NCBI GenBank assembly: GCA_910890315.1 | Contig: CAJVGD010000012.1 | Coordinates: forward strand, 124,001 to 188,000 | From: Serendipita indica DSM 11827 | Lineage: Eukaryota > Basidiomycota > Agaricomycetes > Sebacinales > Serendipitaceae | Length of the DNA: 64,000 nt | Direction: 5' to 3' | Shown here: positions 1,458 to 60,874 of the stretch, one piece after another | How positions within the stretch are numbered: the first letter of the stretch is position 1 | Layout: every line of letters starts with the position of its first letter | The notes under the pieces: generated by a model | Seen by the model: only the letters and a program-made list of their open reading frames with translations | What the model was told of the DNA's origin: nothing | Database searches by the model: none | Made by a program: the position numbers and the translations under genes

Positions 1458-2240
1458 TTAGATGGGCTTGATCTTGAAGTGAAGAGAAATGAGGGAGAAG
1501 ACCAAGCACTGTGCAAATGTGAGACATTGGTCGGGTCGAATCAGCTACCTACTTTGACGTCCTGGACAAGATAGTAAAACACGCGTAATCCTTCTGGGTC
1601 CTCGCTCTCTGAAACGTCCATCAATGATCCAATCTTGGCAGTCTATAGAGCATTTCAGTGGAGGAGAAAGATACGTTCAGAGTGTACCCACGTGGAAGGA
1701 AATATGGTCGTTGCCGATACGAATTTCGAGCTCCTGTTTGCCTACGATGTTTGGTTTGGGCCAGTTTGAGTCATCTTCCCTGAGAAGGAGATGTGAATAC
1801 TATCTAAAGAGGTTGAAGGGAGCCTACTTGACGATTTCACTCGTCTCAACAATTCGCTTTAGCTCTTTGACTACCAGGGGGCCAATGAACACTGAGGGAT
1901 GAGCCAGATGAAATGTAAAGAGTGGGATAGGGGAATATATATTAGCGTTCTCAGCCTTTGATTGAACGTGGATGGCGCGTGCTCACTTTCTTTACGGATG
2001 AGCGAATCGTTGCGATAGTTCGAGTTGTTCGCGTATCGGAGGCGACCATGCGAGTATTCAAACTCGAGAAACTCGTGACCGTGCTTGCCAGAGTGGCCCG
2101 TGCTGCCGTCCATGTTCAGCAGCCAGCGATTTTGACCAGTCATTGACACGTACTAGTAACTAGAAAATATCATTAGAAATGCGACAAAACTGAACAGATT
2201 TCGCGTACCGAAAGTAGAATGGATCGCTGTCCGACGACAT
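1458..2240 (-). CDS. MAGO: Mago nashi, exon junction complex core subunit
   Basis: Mago pairs with Y14 and locks eIF4A3 onto spliced mRNA, about 24 nt upstream of exon junctions. The protein is read through seven exons. It starts [11 protein letters not shown], continues as [19 protein letters not shown], then [72 protein letters not shown] and ends HFKIKPI. This covers the whole family from end to end at the usual length of about 150 residues. The second exon is only 6 nt (2154-2159) and is needed to give the conserved RYY. The last intron splits VQDVK from CLVFSL. The start is the ATG at 2238-2240, the only one that gives the family N-terminus. The downstream neighbour on the same strand is the glycogen synthase convergent end; the upstream neighbour ends 116 bp away. 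Confidence 0.95.
2154..2159 (-). other. 6-nt microexon of mago nashi
   Basis: On the minus strand this exon reads TTACTA. It lies between a 49-bp intron (2208-2160, gtacgcg to ttttctag, with a ctaat branch-like site) and a 51-bp intron (2153-2103, gtacgtg to acggcag). Exon 1 ends in phase 2 with CG, so CG+T, TAC and TA+C give Arg-Tyr-Tyr. That is the RYY that precedes GH(S/K)G in Mago proteins. Without this exon the reading either drops YY or gains a non-homologous insert ([15 protein letters not shown]). Confidence 0.85.
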
Positions 2241-2356
2241 TTTTGCTGAAGACGCGTTAGACCAACTTCACGCTCAACATACACCCAGTGAGGAGAATTG
2301 GATCACTCGTATTGCAGTACTAGATACAAGTCGTAGAATATCAGAAGTCATGTCAT

Positions 2357-3725
2357 TCATTCAAGGGAAACGGTTCCAGCATCGTATGCGAAATGCCCCA
2401 TCATGCCACTCCGTATAAACATGGGCCCGAAAAGGCGCACTACTATGTCACGTATAACCTGTAAGATGCTGTTATTCGCGAGTGCAGACAAGCCTCGTCG
2501 CGAGCTAGCAGTCACTCTGTCTGTGCGTGAGCGACGAATCGAGGCAAACTTGCTAAACGTTGCGTCCGAGGGACCATTTGCCGCGAGGAGGCGCGCAAGG
2601 ATAACTGCACTTTCAATGGCCATTTGAGATCCCTGGAGGGGTTGTCACATTCATTGGCAGAGCGATAGGTTGTGCTGCTTACTTGTCCACCGATCGGAGT
2701 AGTCGGATGTGCAGCGTCACCACATAGCACAACCCGTCCGCGATGCCAGGTGGGTAGAGGGGGGCGGTCGTAAATACCAAGAGGGACCGCCCGGACGGCT
2801 TTTGAGATCAAGAGGGAAGGTAAAGATGCCTCCCAACCCTGAATCTTATTCTCGCATATCTTCTTGCATTCTTCTAAACTGCTGTTTCCTTTTGTCCACT
2901 CTGCTTCGCCTCCAGCGGGATCATTGCTTGGAAAGCCGTTGAACCTGTGGTGGATCAATGACATATACGCTCAACGATACCAACTCACCACGCCCACGTG
3001 TGGTCTTCATCGCTAGGAAAGGCACCAAAGAAAGCACCGTAGCCCAGGAACATATTTCCCCCACGAATTATCGTAGCCTCCTCTTCAGCGGTCAATTTTG
3101 AAATGCCAACAACTACGCTTGCTCCAGTGAAGTTCGGCTGTACATTTTCTCCTGTTACGTATTGGCGCGCCACGGAGTGGAGGCCATCACATGCGATCAC
3201 CAAGTCGGCAGTGATGTGTTCGCCACTGCGGAAATGTGCTGTCACGGCGTTTTCAGATTCCTCAATTCTGCTGATTTTGAGATTGTAGCGTATATCGACG
3301 CCTCGATCCTTGATTAATTCTCGCAGACCATCACAGAGTTTTTGGCGTTCGATGGAGTAAATCTACTTGCGTGAGCAAGATTCAAAATCAATAAAGAACT
3401 GTACCGTATATCCAAACTTCTCTTCGAATAGATCTCCCAGTCGCTCTTGAATCAACAGACTGTCGCTGTCTCCCCTCTTAACCGTTACTATTCCCAGCTT
3501 TCCGCCTCGTTTGGTGACGATATTATCAGCACCTATGAACTTCAGAGCCTTGAGACCATTCGGACCGAGCCCAACAGCGCCACCTATGGGCGCACGCGCG
3601 TCTTCTGGCCCACCATCGACAATGGTGATGCGATAGTCTGTAGTCTTGCGCAGAGCAGCTGCCATTACGGGACCAGCGATACCCATTCCCACTATGAGAA
3701 CATTGAGCTGCTTATTCGAAGACAT
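2357..3725 (-). CDS. FAD-dependent monooxygenase, tandem copy 1
   Basis: This is a group A flavoprotein monooxygenase (salicylate hydroxylase / kynurenine 3-monooxygenase fold), expected to use NAD(P)H and O2 to hydroxylate a small, probably aromatic, substrate. Visible motifs in order: the dinucleotide-binding GMGIAGPVMAAAL near residue 11, the DG motif in VIACDGLHSVAR, and the GD motif GRVVLCGDAAHPTTPIGGQ. A C-terminal helix follows and the end is YDAGTVSLE. Four exons are separated by short introns near 3362, 2975 and 2680. The start is the ATG at 3723-3725 (MSSNKQLNVLIVG), which puts the Rossmann motif at the usual distance; an in-frame upstream start at 3764 is less likely. Its two sister genes lie upstream on the same strand. 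This copy is the most diverged of the three. The substrate cannot be told from sequence. Confidence 0.88.
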
Positions 3726-4050
3726 GGTTGCACACGACGTACTCCATCGCTTCAACGTCAGCACTTTATCAAGCTGTAAACGTCCGACTCGGCGGTTTTA
3801 CTAGAAGGTCTGGATTCATATACTGAGTTGAGGTACTCGGAGACATTTGAATGATGACCGCCGCAGCAGCAAAGGAAACCAGTGATGCCTTTTGGGTCGT
3901 TCACGGTTGATTGACTATGTCAGAAAGGATGGTGCCACCTCGCTTCGTACTTGCACTGCCAAAGTTTGAACCTGCTTGGTTGAAGTCGGGGACAAGGATC
4001 TTCAGCGCTAGCCTTTGAATGGTCTATATGGCTCTTCATTAAACCAATAC
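3726..4050 (-). promoter_or_regulatory. Upstream region of monooxygenase 1 with CCG-N3-CGG motif
   Basis: The 325 bp between copy 1 and copy 2 contain tccgactcggcggttt at 3783-3798, a CCG-N3-CGG everted triplet followed by a further CGG. Zn2Cys6 regulators of fungi bind CGG/CCG triplets (family knowledge). The stretch 3759-3806 recurs at 5804-5842, where no gene start follows. The binding role is inferred. Confidence 0.45.
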
Positions 4051-5433
4051 CTAGTCGAGAACAACATTTCCAGCGTCGTAGGAATAATGATTGCGTATCC
4101 CACTTCGTATAAAGAATGGCCCCACGAGCCAGGCGAACCAATCGCGCAGAGTTTGTATCAAGGCATTGCCAGAAATCATCATGAACAGGGTACGACGCGA
4201 GTTTGTAGTCACAGCGTCTGTACGTGGTCGACGAATGGCTGCATACTCGGCAAATGTGGCATGTGAAGGTCCCTTCGCCGCAAGAAGGCGTGCAAGGATG
4301 ACTGCACTTTCCATTACCATTTGAGAGCCCTGAAGGATGTTTCAGGCTTCGACAACTCAAAGAAGAGCCCACTGACCTGCCCACCGATAGGTGTTGTCGG
4401 ATGAGCTGCGTCTCCGCACAAAACAACTCGCCCACGATGCCAGGTAGGTAAAGGAGGGCGGTCGTAAATTCCCAATGCAACGGTCCGTATAGCTCGGGAG
4501 AGGATCAAGTCTGGAATGGAGTTCTTCCAACCTTGGAGCTTGCGCTGGACAAGCTTCTTATGCCCGTCCATTGAAGGGTGTTCTCTATTCCATTCTGCTT
4601 CTCCACCAGCGGGATCTTTGCTGGGAAAAATGTTGAACCTGTAGAAAGTTGTCAAGCAGGTCATGAGCGATGGATATAGAGCACTCACCAACCCCAAGTG
4701 TGGTCACCACATGGGAAGCATCCAAAGAAGGTTCCAGGTCCAAGTGCGATGGTCATTCCCTGGAACAATGTGGCATCTTCTTCCGGACTGAGCTTCGAGA
4801 TGCCCAGTACGTCGCTGGTTTCCGCGAAGCGAGGTTTGACATCTTCTCCCACAACATATTTTCTCGTTACTGAGTGTATTCCATCACATCCAATGAGAAG
4901 ATCGGCAGTAAGTGTTTCTCCGTTGCGAAAGTGAGCAGTTACCGAGTCGGGGGATTCTTCGATTCTGTCAAGTCGCATGTTGTAGTGTCGTGTAATATCC
5001 TTGTATTTGATGAAATCCTGAAGCTTCTGACAAAAAACTGCGCGTTGGATACCGTGAACCTATTAAGAGTCAATCATCATACTATACTAGGTTGGGATAA
5101 TGGATCGCCGACCGCATAACCGAATCTGCTTTTGAAAATATCTGCAAGTTTCTCTCGTATCAACGTATTGTCTGTGTCACCCCGGATCACAGACATCCCT
5201 TCGAGAGCGTGTCCGTTGTCAAGAACGATATGTTCGGCTCCAATAAATCGAAGGGCGTTGATCCCATTTGGAGAGAATGCATATGGTCCTCCGATAGGAG
5301 ACTCAGAGTGCTCAGGGTTAGCATCGACGAGCGTAATTCGATAATCTGTCGTCTTGCGGAGTGCCGCCGCCAGGACGGGACCAGCCACACCAGAGCCTAT
5401 AATGAGCACATGAAGAGGGTTGGACGTGGCCAT
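4051..5433 (-). CDS. FAD-dependent monooxygenase, tandem copy 2
   Basis: A paralogue of copies 1 and 3 with the same exon plan and the same three flavin motifs: GSGVAGPVLAAALRKTTDY near the start, LLIGCDGIHSVTRKYV in the middle and GRVVLCGDAAHPTTPIGGQ. The protein ends YDAGNVVLD. The start is the ATG at 5431-5433 (MATSNPLHVLIIGSG); an ATG 42 bp upstream in the same frame is possible. It resembles copy 3 much more than copy 1 (for example the shared block ESPDSVTAHFRNG versus ESADSVTAHFRNG), so these two are the younger duplicates. The reading frames look intact and the exons join in phase, so I treat it as functional. The enzyme class is firm; the substrate is unknown. Confidence 0.88.
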
Positions 5434-45331: not shown

Positions 45332-48300
45332 ATGTCCGATGTTTTTATGCACCTGACAAACGTCCTCCGTCCCGTGCAGTCATCGTCGCAGACCATCAAC
45401 GAAGGCACAGCACTCGCAGATCCAGAGAGCGGCAGGCCGTCGATTTCAAAGTCCGAATCAAAGATAGATGATCTCGGGTTTCTAGAACTTGCTTCTGGAA
45501 CTAACCCTGTCGTCGAGTAAGTACGTCGGCCACTGCACGTGCTCGCCGCTCATATAGCTTGACTTGGCAGTATCGTCGCTATCCATGGCCTCGAAGGGCA
45601 TAGAGAAAAGACATGGTCAACAGAGGATGGAACTCTTTGGCTACGTGACTTCTTGCCTACGGACATATCCAACGCTCGAGTCCTTTCATATGGATACGAC
45701 GCCGACACTCGCAGTACAGAATGCGTATCAACTCTGACTATGCGTCGACATGCCGAGGGACTAGCCCAAGCGCTCTCACGGATACGGAAAGACAGTCCTC
45801 GAGTCAGTAAATCACATTTCCTGGTCGGTCTCCACTGAACGTGATTAGCGTCCGATCATTTTCGTAGCACACGACCTAGGAGGTATCATTCTCAAATGGG
45901 TTCGTCACACAAGCTCCAACGAGACTAATCGCTGATGCTCTCCTAGGCTCTCGTCATTTGTCATAATCAGAGTTTGGCATCCAAGGGCGAGCTCCGGGAC
46001 ATTCTCGTATCCACGCATGCCATCTTATTCTTCGGGACCCCTCACTCTGGCGTCGAGGGTACCACTCTCCTCGATACAATCAACCGCTTGACGTCGATGC
46101 GCATAATGACTACAGACGTAATCCTCAAGGATCTTCAATCTCACTCGTCCGAACTCGAAAACATACAGAGCCTGTACGTCGCAGCGAGCGAGAAAATAAG
46201 CAGCATATTCTTCTGCGAAGAGTACAAGACATCTTCTGTTGACAGGAAACGGCGGAGACTGGTTGGTGCCAATTTTGTCCGGCCTTGAAGACCACTGACT
46301 GGGATAGAACGTTGCCCATCACTCCGCAGTCATCGCCGGCGATCGAAATGGTACAAAAATCGTGCTTCATGCGGACCACGAGAGTTTGGTTCGATTCTCT
46401 AATGCAACGAGCGACAACTATCGAAGCGTTCTTCACTATCTCAAAGACTACGTCGACAGTGCGTCCGCAGCAGTGCAAGAGAAGTGGATTACAGAGGACA
46501 ACCTTCGAAGTTGGTACTCACTTCATATTGTTTGCTTATCTAATAAACCTGCAGGTGTAGCAAAGGGAGAGGTCATCTCTCAGGAGATGATAGTGGCGAA
46601 GCCCTGTCCACCGGTGTCAAGAAGTTACGTCGAGCGAAAGGAGATTCAGTCCCTCATCACAGAAAGGCTGCTTCCGGGAAGCGTACAAGATCAACCGCGG
46701 TGTATACTACATGGACTCGGGGGTTCAGGCAAGACTCAACTCGCGACCAGCTGGGTTCGGAAGCATGGAGCCAGGTAAGAACTATAGCCATTTCTTAGAG
46801 AATCTCTGATTATTTCCAGGTTCACTCGAGTCATTTTCGTCGACGCTTCGAGTCAAACTCAGATAGAAGCAGACTTGGAACGGTCGATCCGCTCATTGGG
46901 CCCAGAGTACAACGAGATGACCTGGATGGATGCAGTCGCCTACCTCGGCGGCAAGGAAAGGGGCTGGCTGCTGTTTATCGACAATGCCGACTCGCCAGAT
47001 CTCAACCTCCGCCCATATCTCCCTGTTTCCATCCATGGAGCAGTTCTAATCACCACAAGGAACAGCGAGTGCATAAGCTACGCTCCGGATGGTGCTGTTC
47101 CTGTTGGTGGACTGGAGGAGAATGAGGCAATCAATCTCCTTCATAAGCTCGCTAATGTCACACCCACGTCCGATACCAAGTCTGTGGAGATTGTTCAGGA
47201 GCTAGGGATGCTGGCGCTGGCGATTACTCAAGCGGGGTCATATATTCGCAAGACACGCCGGCTCGACACGTACCTTGATACGTTGCGAAGTCATCGGAAG
47301 CGACTCCTACGGAAGCAGCCAGATATCGGGAATGAATATACATCCTCGACGTACGCTGCATTCGACCTGTCTTTCCAAACCCTACCGACAAAGACGCAAG
47401 AGCTGCTAAAGTTGTGTGCGTTTCTTCACCATTCGGACATTCCGGTCTCCTTATTCCAGCACTCGACAGAGTCTGGTTTCGCAACATACACGGTCCTGGA
47501 TGACTTTCCTCCGCCAGATAGCGACAAAGCAGTCATCCAGAAGCTCAAGGAGATTCTGGGCTCAACGTGGGATGAGGTCGAATTCCAAGAGATCGTGGAA
47601 TCGGCTACGCGCGCATCATTTATCCATGTTTCGACTGATGGACTATTCTACGCCGTCCACCCACTACTTCAGATGTACATCAAGGATTGTTCTAGTCAGG
47701 AGGATAATCGAGAGTACGCGCGTGCGACTACTCAACTGATACTTGGTGCGATCCGGCCAGTTGAGGGTAGCAATGCGCGGTTTTGGCAACTACTTCCACA
47801 CGCCACCAAGATCCCACAATCGGTGCAATCAGAGAATATGGCACACGCATTGGCGTTCTATAAGCTTTATCATCCATTGGGTGATTGGAAGACTTGTCGA
47901 GAACTGTTAGAGACTGCGTTTTACCAAGTTCAGCAGGATCATGGTCTAAAGCATAAAAGTTCGATGTGGGTGATGTGTAAACTTGGTAATGCGTTGCATA
48001 GTTGCGGTCAATTGGAAAAGGCAGAAAAGATGGAGCGAGAAGTACTCGCTCTGCGGCTGGAGATTCTTGGACCACGTCATCCAGACACCATTCAAGCAAT
48101 GGGAAACCTTGCAGCCACCTTGCACTCCCGTGGTCAGCTGGACGAGGCAGAAAAGATGGACCGAGAGGTACTCGCTCTGCAGCTGGAGATCCTTGGACCA
48201 CGTCATCCAGACCCATTTTGTCAATGAACAACCTTGCGACCACCTTGCACTCCCGTGGTCAGCTGGACGAGGCAGAAAAGATGAAGCGAGATGTACTCGC

Positions 48301-49902
48301 TCTGCGGCTGGAGATTCTTGGACCACGGCATCCAGACACCATTCAAGCAATGAACAACCTTGCAACGACCTTGCACTCCCGTGGTCAGCTGGACGAGGCA
48401 GAAAAGATGAACCAGATGTACTCGCTCTGCGGCTGGAGATTCTTGGACCACGGCATCCAGACACCATTTCTGCAATGGGAAACCTTGCAGCCACCTTGCA
48501 CTCCCGTGGTCAGCTGGACGAGGCAGAAAAGATGGACCGAGAGGTACTCGCTCTACAGCTGGAGATTCTTGGACCACGTCATCCAGACACCATTTCTGCA
48601 ATGGGAAACCTTGCAGCCACCTTGGACTCCCGTGGTCAGCTGGACGAGGCAGAAAAGATGGAGCGAGATGTACTCGCTCTGCAGCTGGAGATTCTTGGAC
48701 CACGTCATTCAGACACCATTTTGTCAATGAACAACCTTGCAACCACCTTGCACTCCCGTGGTCAGCTGGACGAGGCAGAAAAGATGAAGCGAGAGGTACT
48801 CGCTCTACAGCTGGAGATTCTTGGACCACGTCATCCAGACACCATTTCTGCAATGGGAAACCTTGCAACCACCTTGCACTCCCGTGGTCAGCTGGACGAG
48901 GCAGAAAAGATGAAGCGAGATGTACTCGCTCTGCAGCTGGAGATTCTTGGACCACGGCATCCAGACACCATTTCTGCAATGGGAAACCTTGCAGCCACCT
49001 TGCACTCCCGTGGTCAGCTGGACGAGGCAGAAAAGATGAAGCGAGATGTACTCGCTCTGCGGCTGGAGATTCTTGGACCACGTCATTCAGACACCATTTC
49101 TGCAATGGGAAACCTTGCAACCACCTTGCACTCCCGTGGTCAGCTGGACGAGGCAGAAAAGATGGACCGAGAGGTACTCGCTCTGCGGCTGGAGATTCTT
49201 GGACCACGGCATCCAGACACCATTTCTGCAATGGGAAACCTTGCAGCCACCTTGCACTCCCGTGGTCAGTTGGACGAGGCAGAAAAGATGGAGCGAGATG
49301 TACTCGCTCTGCAGCTGGAGATTCTTGGACCACGTCATCCAGACACCATTTTTGCAATGGGAAACCTTGCAGCCACCTTGCACTCCCGTGGTCAGTTGGA
49401 CGAGGCAGAAAAGATGAAGCGAGATGTACTCGCTCTGCGGCTGGAGATTCTTGGACCACGTCATCCAGACACCATTCGAGCAATGAACAACCTTGCAACG
49501 ACCTTGCACTCCCGTGGTCAGTTGGACGAGGCAGAAAAGATGAAGCGAGAGGTACTCGCTCTGCAGCTGGAGATTCTTGGACCACGGCATCCAGGCACCA
49601 TTTCTGCGATGACCAAACTTGCCAACACTCTATATCAACGTGATCGACTGGAAGAAGCAGAGAAAATAGAGCGAGAGATCCTTTCTCTGCGCCATGAGAT
49701 TCTTGGAAAACGTCATCCAGAATCGCTCAATGCCTCCTATAGCCTCTGTAAGACATTATGCAAGGGCGGCCAACTTGAAGAGGCTGCCACGCTCTTACAA
49801 GAGACCATAGGAATATGCATTGAAGAATTTGGGAAAGATGACCGTCGTACCTTGAAGTACAAGGAGTTTCTCAAGCTTATTGTGCCCAACCAACCTGTAT
49901 GA
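45332..49902 (+). CDS. NLR-like protein: hydrolase-like domain, NB-ARC, TPR array (array interrupted)
   Basis: A fungal NOD-like receptor architecture, the class used in non-self recognition and regulated cell death. The start MSDVFMHLTNVLRPVQSSS is at 45332. An alpha/beta-hydrolase-like part holds IVAIHGLEGHREKTW, FVAHDLGGIILKW and ILFFGTPHSGVEG. The NB-ARC part holds the P-loop CILHGLGGSGKTQLATSWV, then GWLLFIDNADSPDLNLRPYL and GAVLITTRNSECISYA. From about 47970 come 42-residue TPRs of kinesin-light-chain type (DEAEKMxREVLALxLEILG). Read straight, the frame ends at 48227 after a 1-nt loss near 48212; a second 1-nt loss lies near 48412, after which units continue in phase to the stop at 49902 (end VPNQPV). 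So the array is split over three frames, by true mutation or assembly error. Upstream exons are open and join in phase. Confidence 0.82.
47983..49620 (+). repeat. Tandem 126-bp TPR-coding repeat, about 13 units
   Basis: Units of 126 bp contain ctcccgtggtcagctggacg and gaggcagaaaagatg and are nearly identical over many copies (starts of tcccgtggtcag at 48126, 48251, 48377, 48502 and 48628, then every 126 bp to about 49510). The two 125-bp steps mark the single-base losses. A few positions vary in a recurring way, such as dREV/RDV, LQL/LRL and TILSM/TISAM/TIQAM. Diverged units bound the array on both sides. Confidence 0.93.
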
Positions 49903-50111
49903 CTTGCGTTATATGTCTATTTCATTTTCATTGTTTATTTGATAGCACCATCTTGGATATCTTCACGGTCACGATGACTCGCGACTCTGAAATCCAGAAT
50001 ATGATACTATGCTGTACAATACGTCTAAGCCTGATATATTTTCCTCAGGAGCGTCGACGCTCAAAGAGCTGCCAGCGCAGGTTGAACCCTGCCGCCATCT
50101 CCGGAACAGCC

Positions 50112-51086
50112 ATGGGGCTCCTCGACATTCTCCTTCAAGTCTTCCAGCTTCTTTGTGGCTCTCAAAATCCCGCAAAACAGGAATCCCAGGCTCCAAACGC
50201 TGGATATCCAGGAGCTCAGCAACCCTCGGCCCCACAACACGCCCAACAGCCCACATACCAACCACCAGCGCACCCAAAACCACCTCAGCAATACCAACAG
50301 AAGCCTACAAAGTCACATAAGAACAACCTTGCAACGACCTTGCACTCCCGTGGTCAGTTGGACGAGGCAGAAAAGATGAAGCGAGAGGTACTCGCTCTGC
50401 AGCTGGAGATTCTTGGACCACGTCATTCAGGCACCATTCAAGCAATGAACAACCTTGCAACGACCTTGCACTCCCGTGGTCAGTTGGACGAGGCAGAAAA
50501 GATGAAGCGAGAGGTACTCGCTCTGTGGCTGGAGATCCTTGGACCACAGCATCCAGACACCATTTCTGCAATGGGAAACCTTGCAGCCACCTTGCACTCC
50601 CGTGGTCAGTTGGACGAGGCAGAAAAGATTCTGCGAGAGGTACTCGCTCTGCGGCTGGAGATCCTTGGACCACGCCATCCAGACACCATTTTGTCAATGA
50701 ACAACCTTGCGACCACCTTGCACTCCCGTGGTCAGCTGGACGAGGCAGAAAAGATGAAGCGAGATGTACTCGCTCTGCGGCTGGAGATTCTTGGACCACG
50801 GCATCCAGACACCATTTCTGCAATGGGAAACCTTGCAACGACCTTGCACTCCCGTGGTCAGTTGGACGAGGCAGAAAAGATGGACCAAGAAGTACTCGCT
50901 CTGCGGCTGGAGATCCTTGGACCACGCCATCCACACACCATTCAAGCAATGACTAATCTTGCTGCCACTTTATATCAACATAACCGACTGCAAGAAGCAG
51001 AGAAAATAGAGCAAGAAATCCTTTCTCTGCGCCATGAGATTCTTGGACAACGTCATCCGGAATCTCTCGACGCTTCTTTCTTATAA
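50112..51086 (+). CDS. Chimeric gene: Smr-type N-terminus fused to TPR repeats
   Basis: An uninterrupted frame of 324 codons. The first 70 residues start MGLLDILLQVFQLLCGSQNP and run into a Pro/Gln-rich stretch ending QQYQQKPTKSHK. This looks like the N-terminus of basidiomycete Smr-domain proteins, which have MGLLDxLLxxxQxLCG, a Pro/Gln/His spacer and then the folded part. At 50321-50322 the sequence switches to the 126-bp TPR unit of the neighbouring NLR gene, at an internal point of the unit (NNLATTLHSRGQ). Five near-identical units plus one diverged unit follow, and the frame ends LDASFL; further 3' sequence still resembles the NLR end but is no longer in frame. The NLR-like hydrolase and NB-ARC parts are missing. 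The start ATG at 50112 follows the family pattern; an in-frame upstream extension to 49899 has no support. Whether the gene is expressed is unknown. Confidence 0.65.
   Translation: MGLLDILLQVFQLLCGSQNPAKQESQAPNAGYPGAQQPSAPQHAQQPTYQPPAHPKPPQQYQQKPTKSHKNNLATTLHSRGQLDEAEKMKREVLALQLEILGPRHSGTIQAMNNLATTLHSRGQLDEAEKMKREVLALWLEILGPQHPDTISAMGNLAATLHSRGQLDEAEKILREVLALRLEILGPRHPDTILSMNNLATTLHSRGQLDEAEKMKRDVLALRLEILGPRHPDTISAMGNLATTLHSRGQLDEAEKMDQEVLALRLEILGPRHPHTIQAMTNLAATLYQHNRLQEAEKIEQEILSLRHEILGQRHPESLDASFL
50322..50950 (+). repeat. Second block of 126-bp TPR repeats, five units
   Basis: The same unit as in the array at 47983-49620, with tcccgtggtcag at intervals of 126 bp (about 50347, 50473, 50599, 50725, 50851). 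The sequence is so close to the first block that exchange between the two must be recent or ongoing. Confidence 0.9.
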
Positions 51087-51383: not shown

Positions 51384-53081
<1,698 letters not shown>

Positions 53082-59083: not shown

Positions 59084-60874
59084 TTATGCCTCCTCCTCTT
59101 CGGCAGCCTGCTCCTCGTACTCGCCCTCCTCCTCGACGCTAGAAAATACATCAGTCAACCCTCTCCTTCACGCAATGCAAATACATGACGCATCCTGGTA
59201 CTGCTGATACTCGGCAACGAGATCTTGCATGTTGGACTCGGCCTCGGTGAACTCCATCTCGTCCATGCCCTCTTGGGTGTACCAGTGAAGGAAAGCCTTG
59301 CGCTTGAACATGGCTGTGAACTGATCCGACACACGCTTGAAGAGCTCCTGAATGGCCGTCGAGTTGCCGATGAATGTGACTGCCATCTTGAGACCGCGAG
59401 GAGCAATATCGCACTGAGCGGTGAGGACATTGTTCGGGATCCATTCGACGAAATAGGCAGAGTTCTTGTTCTGGACATTTTGCATCTGCTCTTCGACCTC
59501 CTTCATCGAGACCTTTCCACGGAAGACGGCAGCGACCGTAAGGTAGCGTCCGTGTCTTGGGTCAGAGGCAGCCATCATGTTCTTTGCGTCGAACATTTGC
59601 TGCGTCAATTCGGGGACGGTAACGGCGCGGTATTGCTGGCTGCCACGAGCGGTCAATGGAGCAAAGCCAACCATGAAGAAGTGGAGACGAGGGAACGGCA
59701 CGAGGTTGACAGCCATCTTGCGGAGATCCGAGTTGAGTTGACCAGGGAACTAGATATCAATCAGCACAAGAGAGGGGAAAAGACGGTGTGTACGCACGCG
59801 CAAGCAAGTCGTAATGCCGGACATGACAATGGAGACGAGGTGGTTAAGGTCACCATACGTCGGGGTGTTGAGCTTGAGAGTGCGGAAGCAAATCTCATAC
59901 AAGGCCTCGTTGTCAATGCAGAAAGTCTCGTCCGAGTTTTCGACGAGCTGGTGCACGGACAAGGTGGCATTATAGGGCTCGACGACGGTGTCCGAGACCT
60001 TTGGCGAGGGAACGACGGAGAAAGTGCACATCATTCTGTCGGGGAACTCCTCTCGAATCTTCGAGATCAAGAGCGTACCCATACCGGCGCCAGTTCCACC
60101 ACCCAGCGAGTGGGTGATCTGGAAGCCCTGGAGGCAGTCGGTGGCCTCGGCCTCTTTGCGGACAACGTCGAGCACAGAGTCGACGAGCTCTGCACCCTCG
60201 GTGTAGTCTAATCAAGGACAGGCGTCAGAACACGTGTTTGTCTTACATAACCCACGGTGGAGGGCAAAGGGGGAAAAAAGGACCACTCACGGCCTTTGGC
60301 CCAGTTGTTACCAGCACCAGACTGTCCAAAGACAAAGTTGTCGGGGCGGAACAGTCCTCCAAGGGGACCAGAGCGGACAGAGTCCATCGTTCCGGGCTCG
60401 AGATCGACGAGCACGGCACGGGGGACATACTTGTTGTCTGCAAGGCGAAGTCGCGTCAGTATTAGCGCGGACTGGGATGCAAAAGGTACACATACCTCCG
60501 GTCTCATTGTAGTAGACGGAGATCCTCTCCAGCTGGAGGTCATTGGTTCCCTTGTAGCTAAACCGTCGTGGTCAAACAGACGGCAGAATAAGAGAGAAAA
60601 AGAAGCTTACAGTCCATTTCTTTCAATGCCATGTTCGTCAGAGACGACTTCCCAGAATTTGGCACCTTTTGAAAAGAGGATCAGAAACTGAAAGTGGCAC
60701 GAGGCGAGCAAACCCGCAGACGGAGAGGACTGCAAGAGTAGCTAGCAAGAGGTAGAGAGCGTACCGATCTGGTTGCCGCACTGTGCAGGGACGGAAGCGG
60801 GATCAGCCAGCTGCAAACCGTACGATGCGGCCAAGGCTTACCTGGCCGGTCTGGAGGTGTACAATTTCACGCAT
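59084..60874 (-). CDS. TUB2: Beta-tubulin
   Basis: Beta-tubulin pairs with alpha-tubulin to build microtubules. The start [11 protein letters not shown] at 60872-60874 carries the autoregulatory MREI. Small exons then give [38 protein letters not shown] and [20 protein letters not shown]. The GTP motif is [15 protein letters not shown]. The binding-site segment [17 protein letters not shown] has Glu and Phe at the positions known as 198 and 200, and Phe is present at 167 (TFSVVPSP); these are the benzimidazole-sensitive forms. The tail is acidic ([16 protein letters not shown]), with TAA at 59084-59086. At least eight introns are present, including several very small early exons, such as the 16-nt exon at about 60770-60785. 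Confidence 0.96.

Follow-up and report, generated by a model that had tools for sequence, protein, structure and literature searches.

We asked whether the hexamer TTACTA, in a mago nashi gene carried by a 64,000-nt stretch of fungal DNA (hereafter the window; GC 50.5%), is a coding exon in its own right and, if so, whether it is an ordinary part of the message or a switch by which a component of the exon junction complex (EJC) might control its own expression.

The mago nashi gene model and the TTACTA exon

In the spliced model the gene lies on the minus strand, from an ATG at 2240 to a stop codon ending at 1458, and comprises seven exons and six introns (Table 1). The hexamer supplies the last base of an Arg codon, one complete Tyr codon and the first two bases of a second, and CG from the end of exon 1, TTACTA and C from the start of exon 3 together read Arg-Tyr-Tyr. 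The predicted product of 148 residues matches the Pfam Mago_nashi profile (PF02792) with 247.2 bits over positions 1-142 of 142, which places it in the family as defined by a full-length match above the gathering score of 27 bits. Seven distinct sequences from the PDB, which we take to be the human and fly proteins, match the product nearly end to end, their chains aligning from query residue 4-7 to 147-148, and RYY is in place in all five of the alignments shown. The first 51 residues of the protein have one match at E<=10 in the genome (an assembly of 24,708,602 bases in 55 contigs). The fungus is a basidiomycete, probably Serendipita (Piriformospora) indica: compared by eye, a 249-residue piece of a phosphate transporter encoded in its genome agrees with PDB 7sp5, the transporter PiPT of that species, at every residue but the last, which sits beside an intron. 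A tRNA scan of the window under the bacterial code returned no genes.

Table 1. Exons, introns and branch-like motifs of the mago nashi gene, with positions in the window
Feature	Positions	Strand	Basis or remarks
Exon 1, 32 coding nt from the ATG at 2240 to a phase-2 end (TTT CG)	2209..2240	-	model and spliced alignment
Intron 1, 49 nt, GTACGC...TAG	2160..2208	-	GT-AG, phase 2
Branch-like CTAAT of intron 1	2176-2172	-	A 13 nt upstream of the final intron base
Microexon TTACTA, 6 nt, phase 2 on both sides	2154..2159	-	enumeration, spliced alignment, shuffles
Intron 2, 51 nt, GTACGT...CAG	2103..2153	-	GT-AG, phase 2, weak acceptor
Branch-like CTGAA of intron 2	2119-2115	-	A 13 nt before the intron end
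Exon 3, 116 nt	1987..2102	-	model and spliced alignment
Intron 3, 95 nt	1892..1986	-	model and spliced alignment
Exon 4, 64 nt	1828..1891	-	model and spliced alignment
Intron 4, 48 nt	1780..1827	-	model and spliced alignment
Exon 5, 88 nt	1692..1779	-	model and spliced alignment
Intron 5, 49 nt	1643..1691	-	model and spliced alignment
Exon 6, 90 nt	1553..1642	-	model and spliced alignment
Intron 6, 44 nt	1509..1552	-	model and spliced alignment
Exon 7, 51 nt including the stop codon	1458..1508	-	model

With the ATG fixed at 2240, we enumerated the models with at most two GT-AG introns of 30-150 nt up to the end of exon 3 and scored each against human MAGOH. Among the 355 models so obtained the one that uses TTACTA ranks first with a score of 181, 16 points above the runner-up at 165. 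The first-pass annotation had held that phase and splice sites work only if the hexamer is used; the preference for the hexamer stands by these 16 points, but the exclusive wording is slightly too strong, as 60 of the 355 models keep an open frame and run in phase into exon 4. Single-intron models that dispense with the microexon reach 162 at best, skipping of the hexamer as the main form scores 155, and retention of intron 1 or intron 2 as the main form leads to early stops. A nested (twin) intron was set aside by reasoning rather than computation, since any product of it would either lack Tyr-Tyr or be shifted in frame.

A spliced aligner supplied with human MAGOH returned the identical six introns and the hexamer, both with and without splice-site weights, and 103 of the 146 aligned columns are identical. 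Furthermore, 200,000 dinucleotide shuffles were made of the 106-nt insert between exons 1 and 3, with the terminal GT and AG kept and both introns held to at least 30 nt; a 6-nt exon that restores RYY arose in eight of them, and one encoding two residues, each either aromatic or His, arose in 459. Taken together, the enumeration, the spliced alignment and the shuffles indicate, as far as DNA and homology go, a genuine microexon, and on this footing mago very probably carries a 6-nt coding exon. At the DNA level it falls within the class of microexons, that is, internal coding exons of about 30 nt or less with spliceosomal flanks. The earlier reading of TTACTA at 2159-2154 as the source of the Arg-Tyr-Tyr of Mago proteins is thus upheld by the best-scoring model, the spliced aligner and the PDB alignments, as is its description of the flanking introns as short (49 and 51 nt, both GT-AG and in phase 2).

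Once GC and AT donors are also allowed (2601 models, 368 of them open), the second-best score rises to 174 against 181. This model combines a GC-AG intron at 2204-2153, a 5-nt exon TACGT and a GT-AG intron at 2147-2103, and reads ...FRYYVTGHSG. High as it ranks, its donors GCGAAA and GTCAAT look poor by eye beside GTACGC and GTACGT, and its product has one extra residue relative to human Mago; we find this arrangement scarcely credible, and it too contains a microexon, of 5 nt.

Splice signals and the proposed order of intron removal

Splice sites were scored against a reference of 42 introns, of which four belong to mago and 38 to six other genes of the genome; GAPDH, EF1A, enolase and Ran, with 25 introns between them, did not enter the scoring. 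The reference introns have a median length of 52 nt and range from 43 to 138 nt (n=42). The donor and the acceptor of intron 1 each outscore 26 of the 42, and the donor of intron 2 outscores 14; the acceptor of intron 2 is weak, outscoring just five, with a score of 1.60 as against 5.48 for that of intron 1. A loose branch-like motif, YTVAH, lies within 40 nt of the end in 43 of 44 introns, both flanking introns included. At 2154-2153 of the window (minus strand) a second AG, made up of the microexon's final A and the opening G of intron 2, lies 7 nt past the acceptor of intron 1 and overlaps the donor of intron 2; judged by eye, its sole use would lead to a stop within a few codons. A search for introner-like copies of the 106-nt insert, with simple repeats and very common words skipped, had as its sole genome match at E<=10 the insert itself.

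We consider it highly likely that TTACTA is a normal coding microexon of mago, present in most or all of its mRNAs through the removal, in turn, of two intron-defined short introns. The sequence of the hexamer, its phase, its splice signals, its place in the best enumerated model, its homology and the like microexons elsewhere in the genome are all observed. From these we infer its inclusion in mRNA, the order of intron removal and its constitutive use. Fungi with short introns are generally considered to recognise every intron as a single unit, and intron definition was reportedly described in fission yeast by Romfo and colleagues in 2000, work cited in PMC11121469. Were each of the two short flanking introns recognised in this way, introns 1 and 2 would be removed one after the other, either of them first, and with one intron gone the hexamer would be part of a longer exon. 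Because either intron may go first, the hexamer lying then in a longer exon, inclusion would be the default; that it occurs in most or all mRNAs is likely because its Tyr-Tyr belongs to the conserved start of Mago. In plants, according to passages of one study (PMC8831610), a microexon leaves too little room for its two flanking introns to be processed simultaneously, and detained introns are common; the flanking introns tend to go sequentially, the upstream one often late, and retention exceeds skipping. These passages were counted against our proposal, together with the weak acceptor of intron 2, the GC-donor model scoring 174 and a false intron that the aligner introduced in an eIF4A gene (see below).

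Tiny exons elsewhere in the genome and the case for regulation

The internal exons of 11 conserved genes of this genome (Mago, Y14, eIF4A3, an eIF4A, two actins, beta-tubulin, GAPDH, EF1A, enolase and Ran) were counted, with the first and last exons of the models excluded, among them one of 8 nt in the second actin and one of 10 nt in eIF4A. Three of the 57 internal exons are of 6 nt or less (Mago 6, actin 6, GAPDH 5), four are of 10 nt or less and eight of 30 nt or less; with Mago, the reason for looking, set aside, the figure is 2/52 at 6 nt or less in ten genes, and as the sample is small and made up of conserved genes these fractions give no genome-wide rate. Some gene models stop short of the ends of their genes (that of Y14 starts at human residue 34, that of eIF4A3 at 18 and that of eIF4A at 21) and may overlook tiny exons in those parts. 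In the eIF4A gene (L007, about 1905-1950) the conserved SAT region contains a frame slip, an assembly error or a real lesion, which the aligner had bridged with a false 38-nt intron. This intron was dropped as an artefact before the counts and the splice-site scoring, and the two exon pieces were merged with that stretch into one of 531 nt; one false intron in 11 genes means that the spliced aligner is not free of error.

The 6-nt exon of actin, TTGCCG, encodes Phe-Ala of GFAGDDAPR (L010, reverse complement 1237-1242) and lies between introns of 72 and 57 nt, and the 5-nt exon of GAPDH, ATTCG, falls within INGFGRIG (L018, 1007-1011) between introns of 76 and 61 nt. Both protein stretches are strongly conserved, and these microexons are for this reason hard to misread. 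An exon of 10 nt occurs in a second actin-like gene (L012, 1981-1990; introns of 53 and 49 nt), and in beta-tubulin, whose ATG is at 60874, a 16-nt exon, TGCGGCAACCAGATCG, lies at 60780-60765 of the window (minus strand; introns of 61 and 99 nt). Given equally tiny exons in actin and GAPDH, the mago microexon seems ordinary for this fungus rather than a special switch. As far as they were modelled, the EJC genes Y14 (84 and 137 nt) and eIF4A3 (814, 84, 70 and 43 nt) have no internal exon below 43 nt, so nothing marks the EJC genes as special.

These observations bear on the possibility that the hexamer is a cassette exon, a share of transcripts joining 2209 directly to 2102 and encoding an in-frame Mago without Tyr-Tyr, whose function would be altered or lost. 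The first-pass annotation had noted that skipping keeps the frame and removes Tyr-Tyr, and with 6 nt and phase 2 on both sides this is correct; the fused 106-nt intron would also lie within the reference range, and the glucose-dependent 20-nt microexon of Trichoderma described in parts of PMC11121469 offers a precedent. However, donor 1 would have to pass over the closer and better-scoring acceptor of intron 1 for that of intron 2, and the weakness of the latter counts against skipping because skipping must use this same acceptor. The resulting protein falls to 233.9 bits against Pfam Mago_nashi, a loss of 13.3 bits. Were the like exons skipped, actin would lose Phe-Ala from GFAGDDAPR and GAPDH would shift frame, so the small-exon layout as such is no pointer to a switch. 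Regulated skipping thus appears unlikely to us.

The weak acceptor of intron 2 could instead favour retention of that intron. Retained intron 1 would bring a TAG stop formed by its own last three bases, and retained intron 2 a TAG at codon 13. On this basis one may picture an EJC, laid down after the removal of intron 1, that represses donor 2, with retention of intron 2, the stop at codon 13, NMD and a lowered level of Mago as the outcome. In addition to the weak acceptor and the immediate stop, such a course could draw on HeLa reporters in which, as parts of PMC6224609 describe, the EJC holds down a 5' splice site 6 nt past the exon junction. Against it, actin and GAPDH, which play no part in the EJC, share the layout, Y14 and eIF4A3 as far as modelled do not, and an early stop upon retention is nothing special, since all six mago introns give one. 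We hold this feedback to be very improbable, and would give equally little credence to the idea that the 6-nt spacing is mago's own EJC sensor, a built-in homeostat of the complex. The splicing feedback suggested in the first-pass annotation is accordingly unsupported: the layout recurs in actin and GAPDH, tiny exons are absent from the modelled Y14 and eIF4A3, and skipping would pair donor 1 with a weak acceptor. If the exon is regulated at all, retention of intron 2 is at least as likely a route as skipping, and by our analysis it appears to be the mechanically better-footed version of feedback. The link to the EJC would matter only if regulation were shown.

Returning to the constitutive microexon that we favour, the N-terminus that the mago model assigns to this core EJC protein, in what is probably a model root symbiont, is likely to be the correct one. 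As mago, actin and GAPDH show, several housekeeping genes here contain exons of 5-6 nt; gene annotation and RNA-seq mapping in this genome should therefore permit exons below 10 nt. Elsewhere in the window, two genes neighbouring mago (2300-5430, minus strand) resemble by eye a tandem pair of what we take to be FAD-dependent monooxygenases. At 46788-51086 (plus strand) long tandem repeats, presumably tetratricopeptide-like units, stand behind a presumably NB-ARC-like region, and both strands carry open frames. An open frame at 51384-52616 (minus strand) matches solved UDP-galactopyranose mutases (best E 9e-162).

Comparison with published microexons

Tiny coding exons are already known in basidiomycetes, and the microexon of mago is a further case. 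Exons down to 6 bp are given for P450 genes of Phanerochaete chrysosporium in passages of PMC1184071, and exons down to 2 nt for Phlebia radiata in passages of PMC6540522, which call very short exons typical of its genes. The statement of the first-pass annotation that microexons this small are rare in fungi is therefore not borne out, either in these two species or in the present genome, where two of the 52 other internal exons sampled are of 6 nt or less. On the side of that statement, portions of PMC11121469 describe functional microexons as new to filamentous fungi and their identification in fungi as limited; the Trichoderma microexon reported there belongs to Xlr2. Exon numbers of mago in print cover plants, algae and animals in the relevant part of PMC3885619. 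In PMC6351623, 12 of the 44 relevant places were covered, and these contain nothing on the exons of the mago gene itself; nothing on short exons was found in excerpts of PMC2246297, and in those of PMC3990503 short exons appear just as a mapping setting. Among the matches listed from the open-licence literature, judged mostly by title and the start of the abstract, there was no report of a fungal mago microexon. In searches for relatives of Mago, eight stretches from viruses (viral_contigs) and 27 from bacteria and archaea (genome_contigs) fit a pattern, and none was confirmed.

Close parallels within this genome are the microexons of actin and GAPDH, which like that of mago are exons of 6 and 5 nt set between GT-AG introns (57-76 nt) and encode strongly conserved residues, although the GAPDH exon differs in not being a multiple of three. 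The genes of P. chrysosporium and Phlebia radiata, as far as the passages cited above go, share with the present case coding exons down to 6 bp and 2-3 nt, respectively, in intron-rich genes with short introns; they are, however, other genes and were reported as sets of gene models, whereas here one gene is held against protein homology. A basidiomycete construct with a "6-nt exon 2 sequence" is named in the methods portion of PMC4624585 for Rhodosporidium DAO1, a weak precedent, as the 6 nt may be just the cloned part of exon 2. The EJC-repressed cryptic microexons of humans, in the portion of PMC6224609 concerned, have a donor 6 nt past the exon junction as in mago, but each arises as a by-product from an annotated exon of greater length, whereas the mago hexamer is needed for Tyr-Tyr. 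Similarly, the 20-nt exon of Trichoderma Xlr2 and the neuronal microexons of animals, as portrayed in parts of PMC11121469, are tiny internal exons between two introns; these have been shown to vary with condition or tissue, whereas for the mago microexon constitutive use is proposed.
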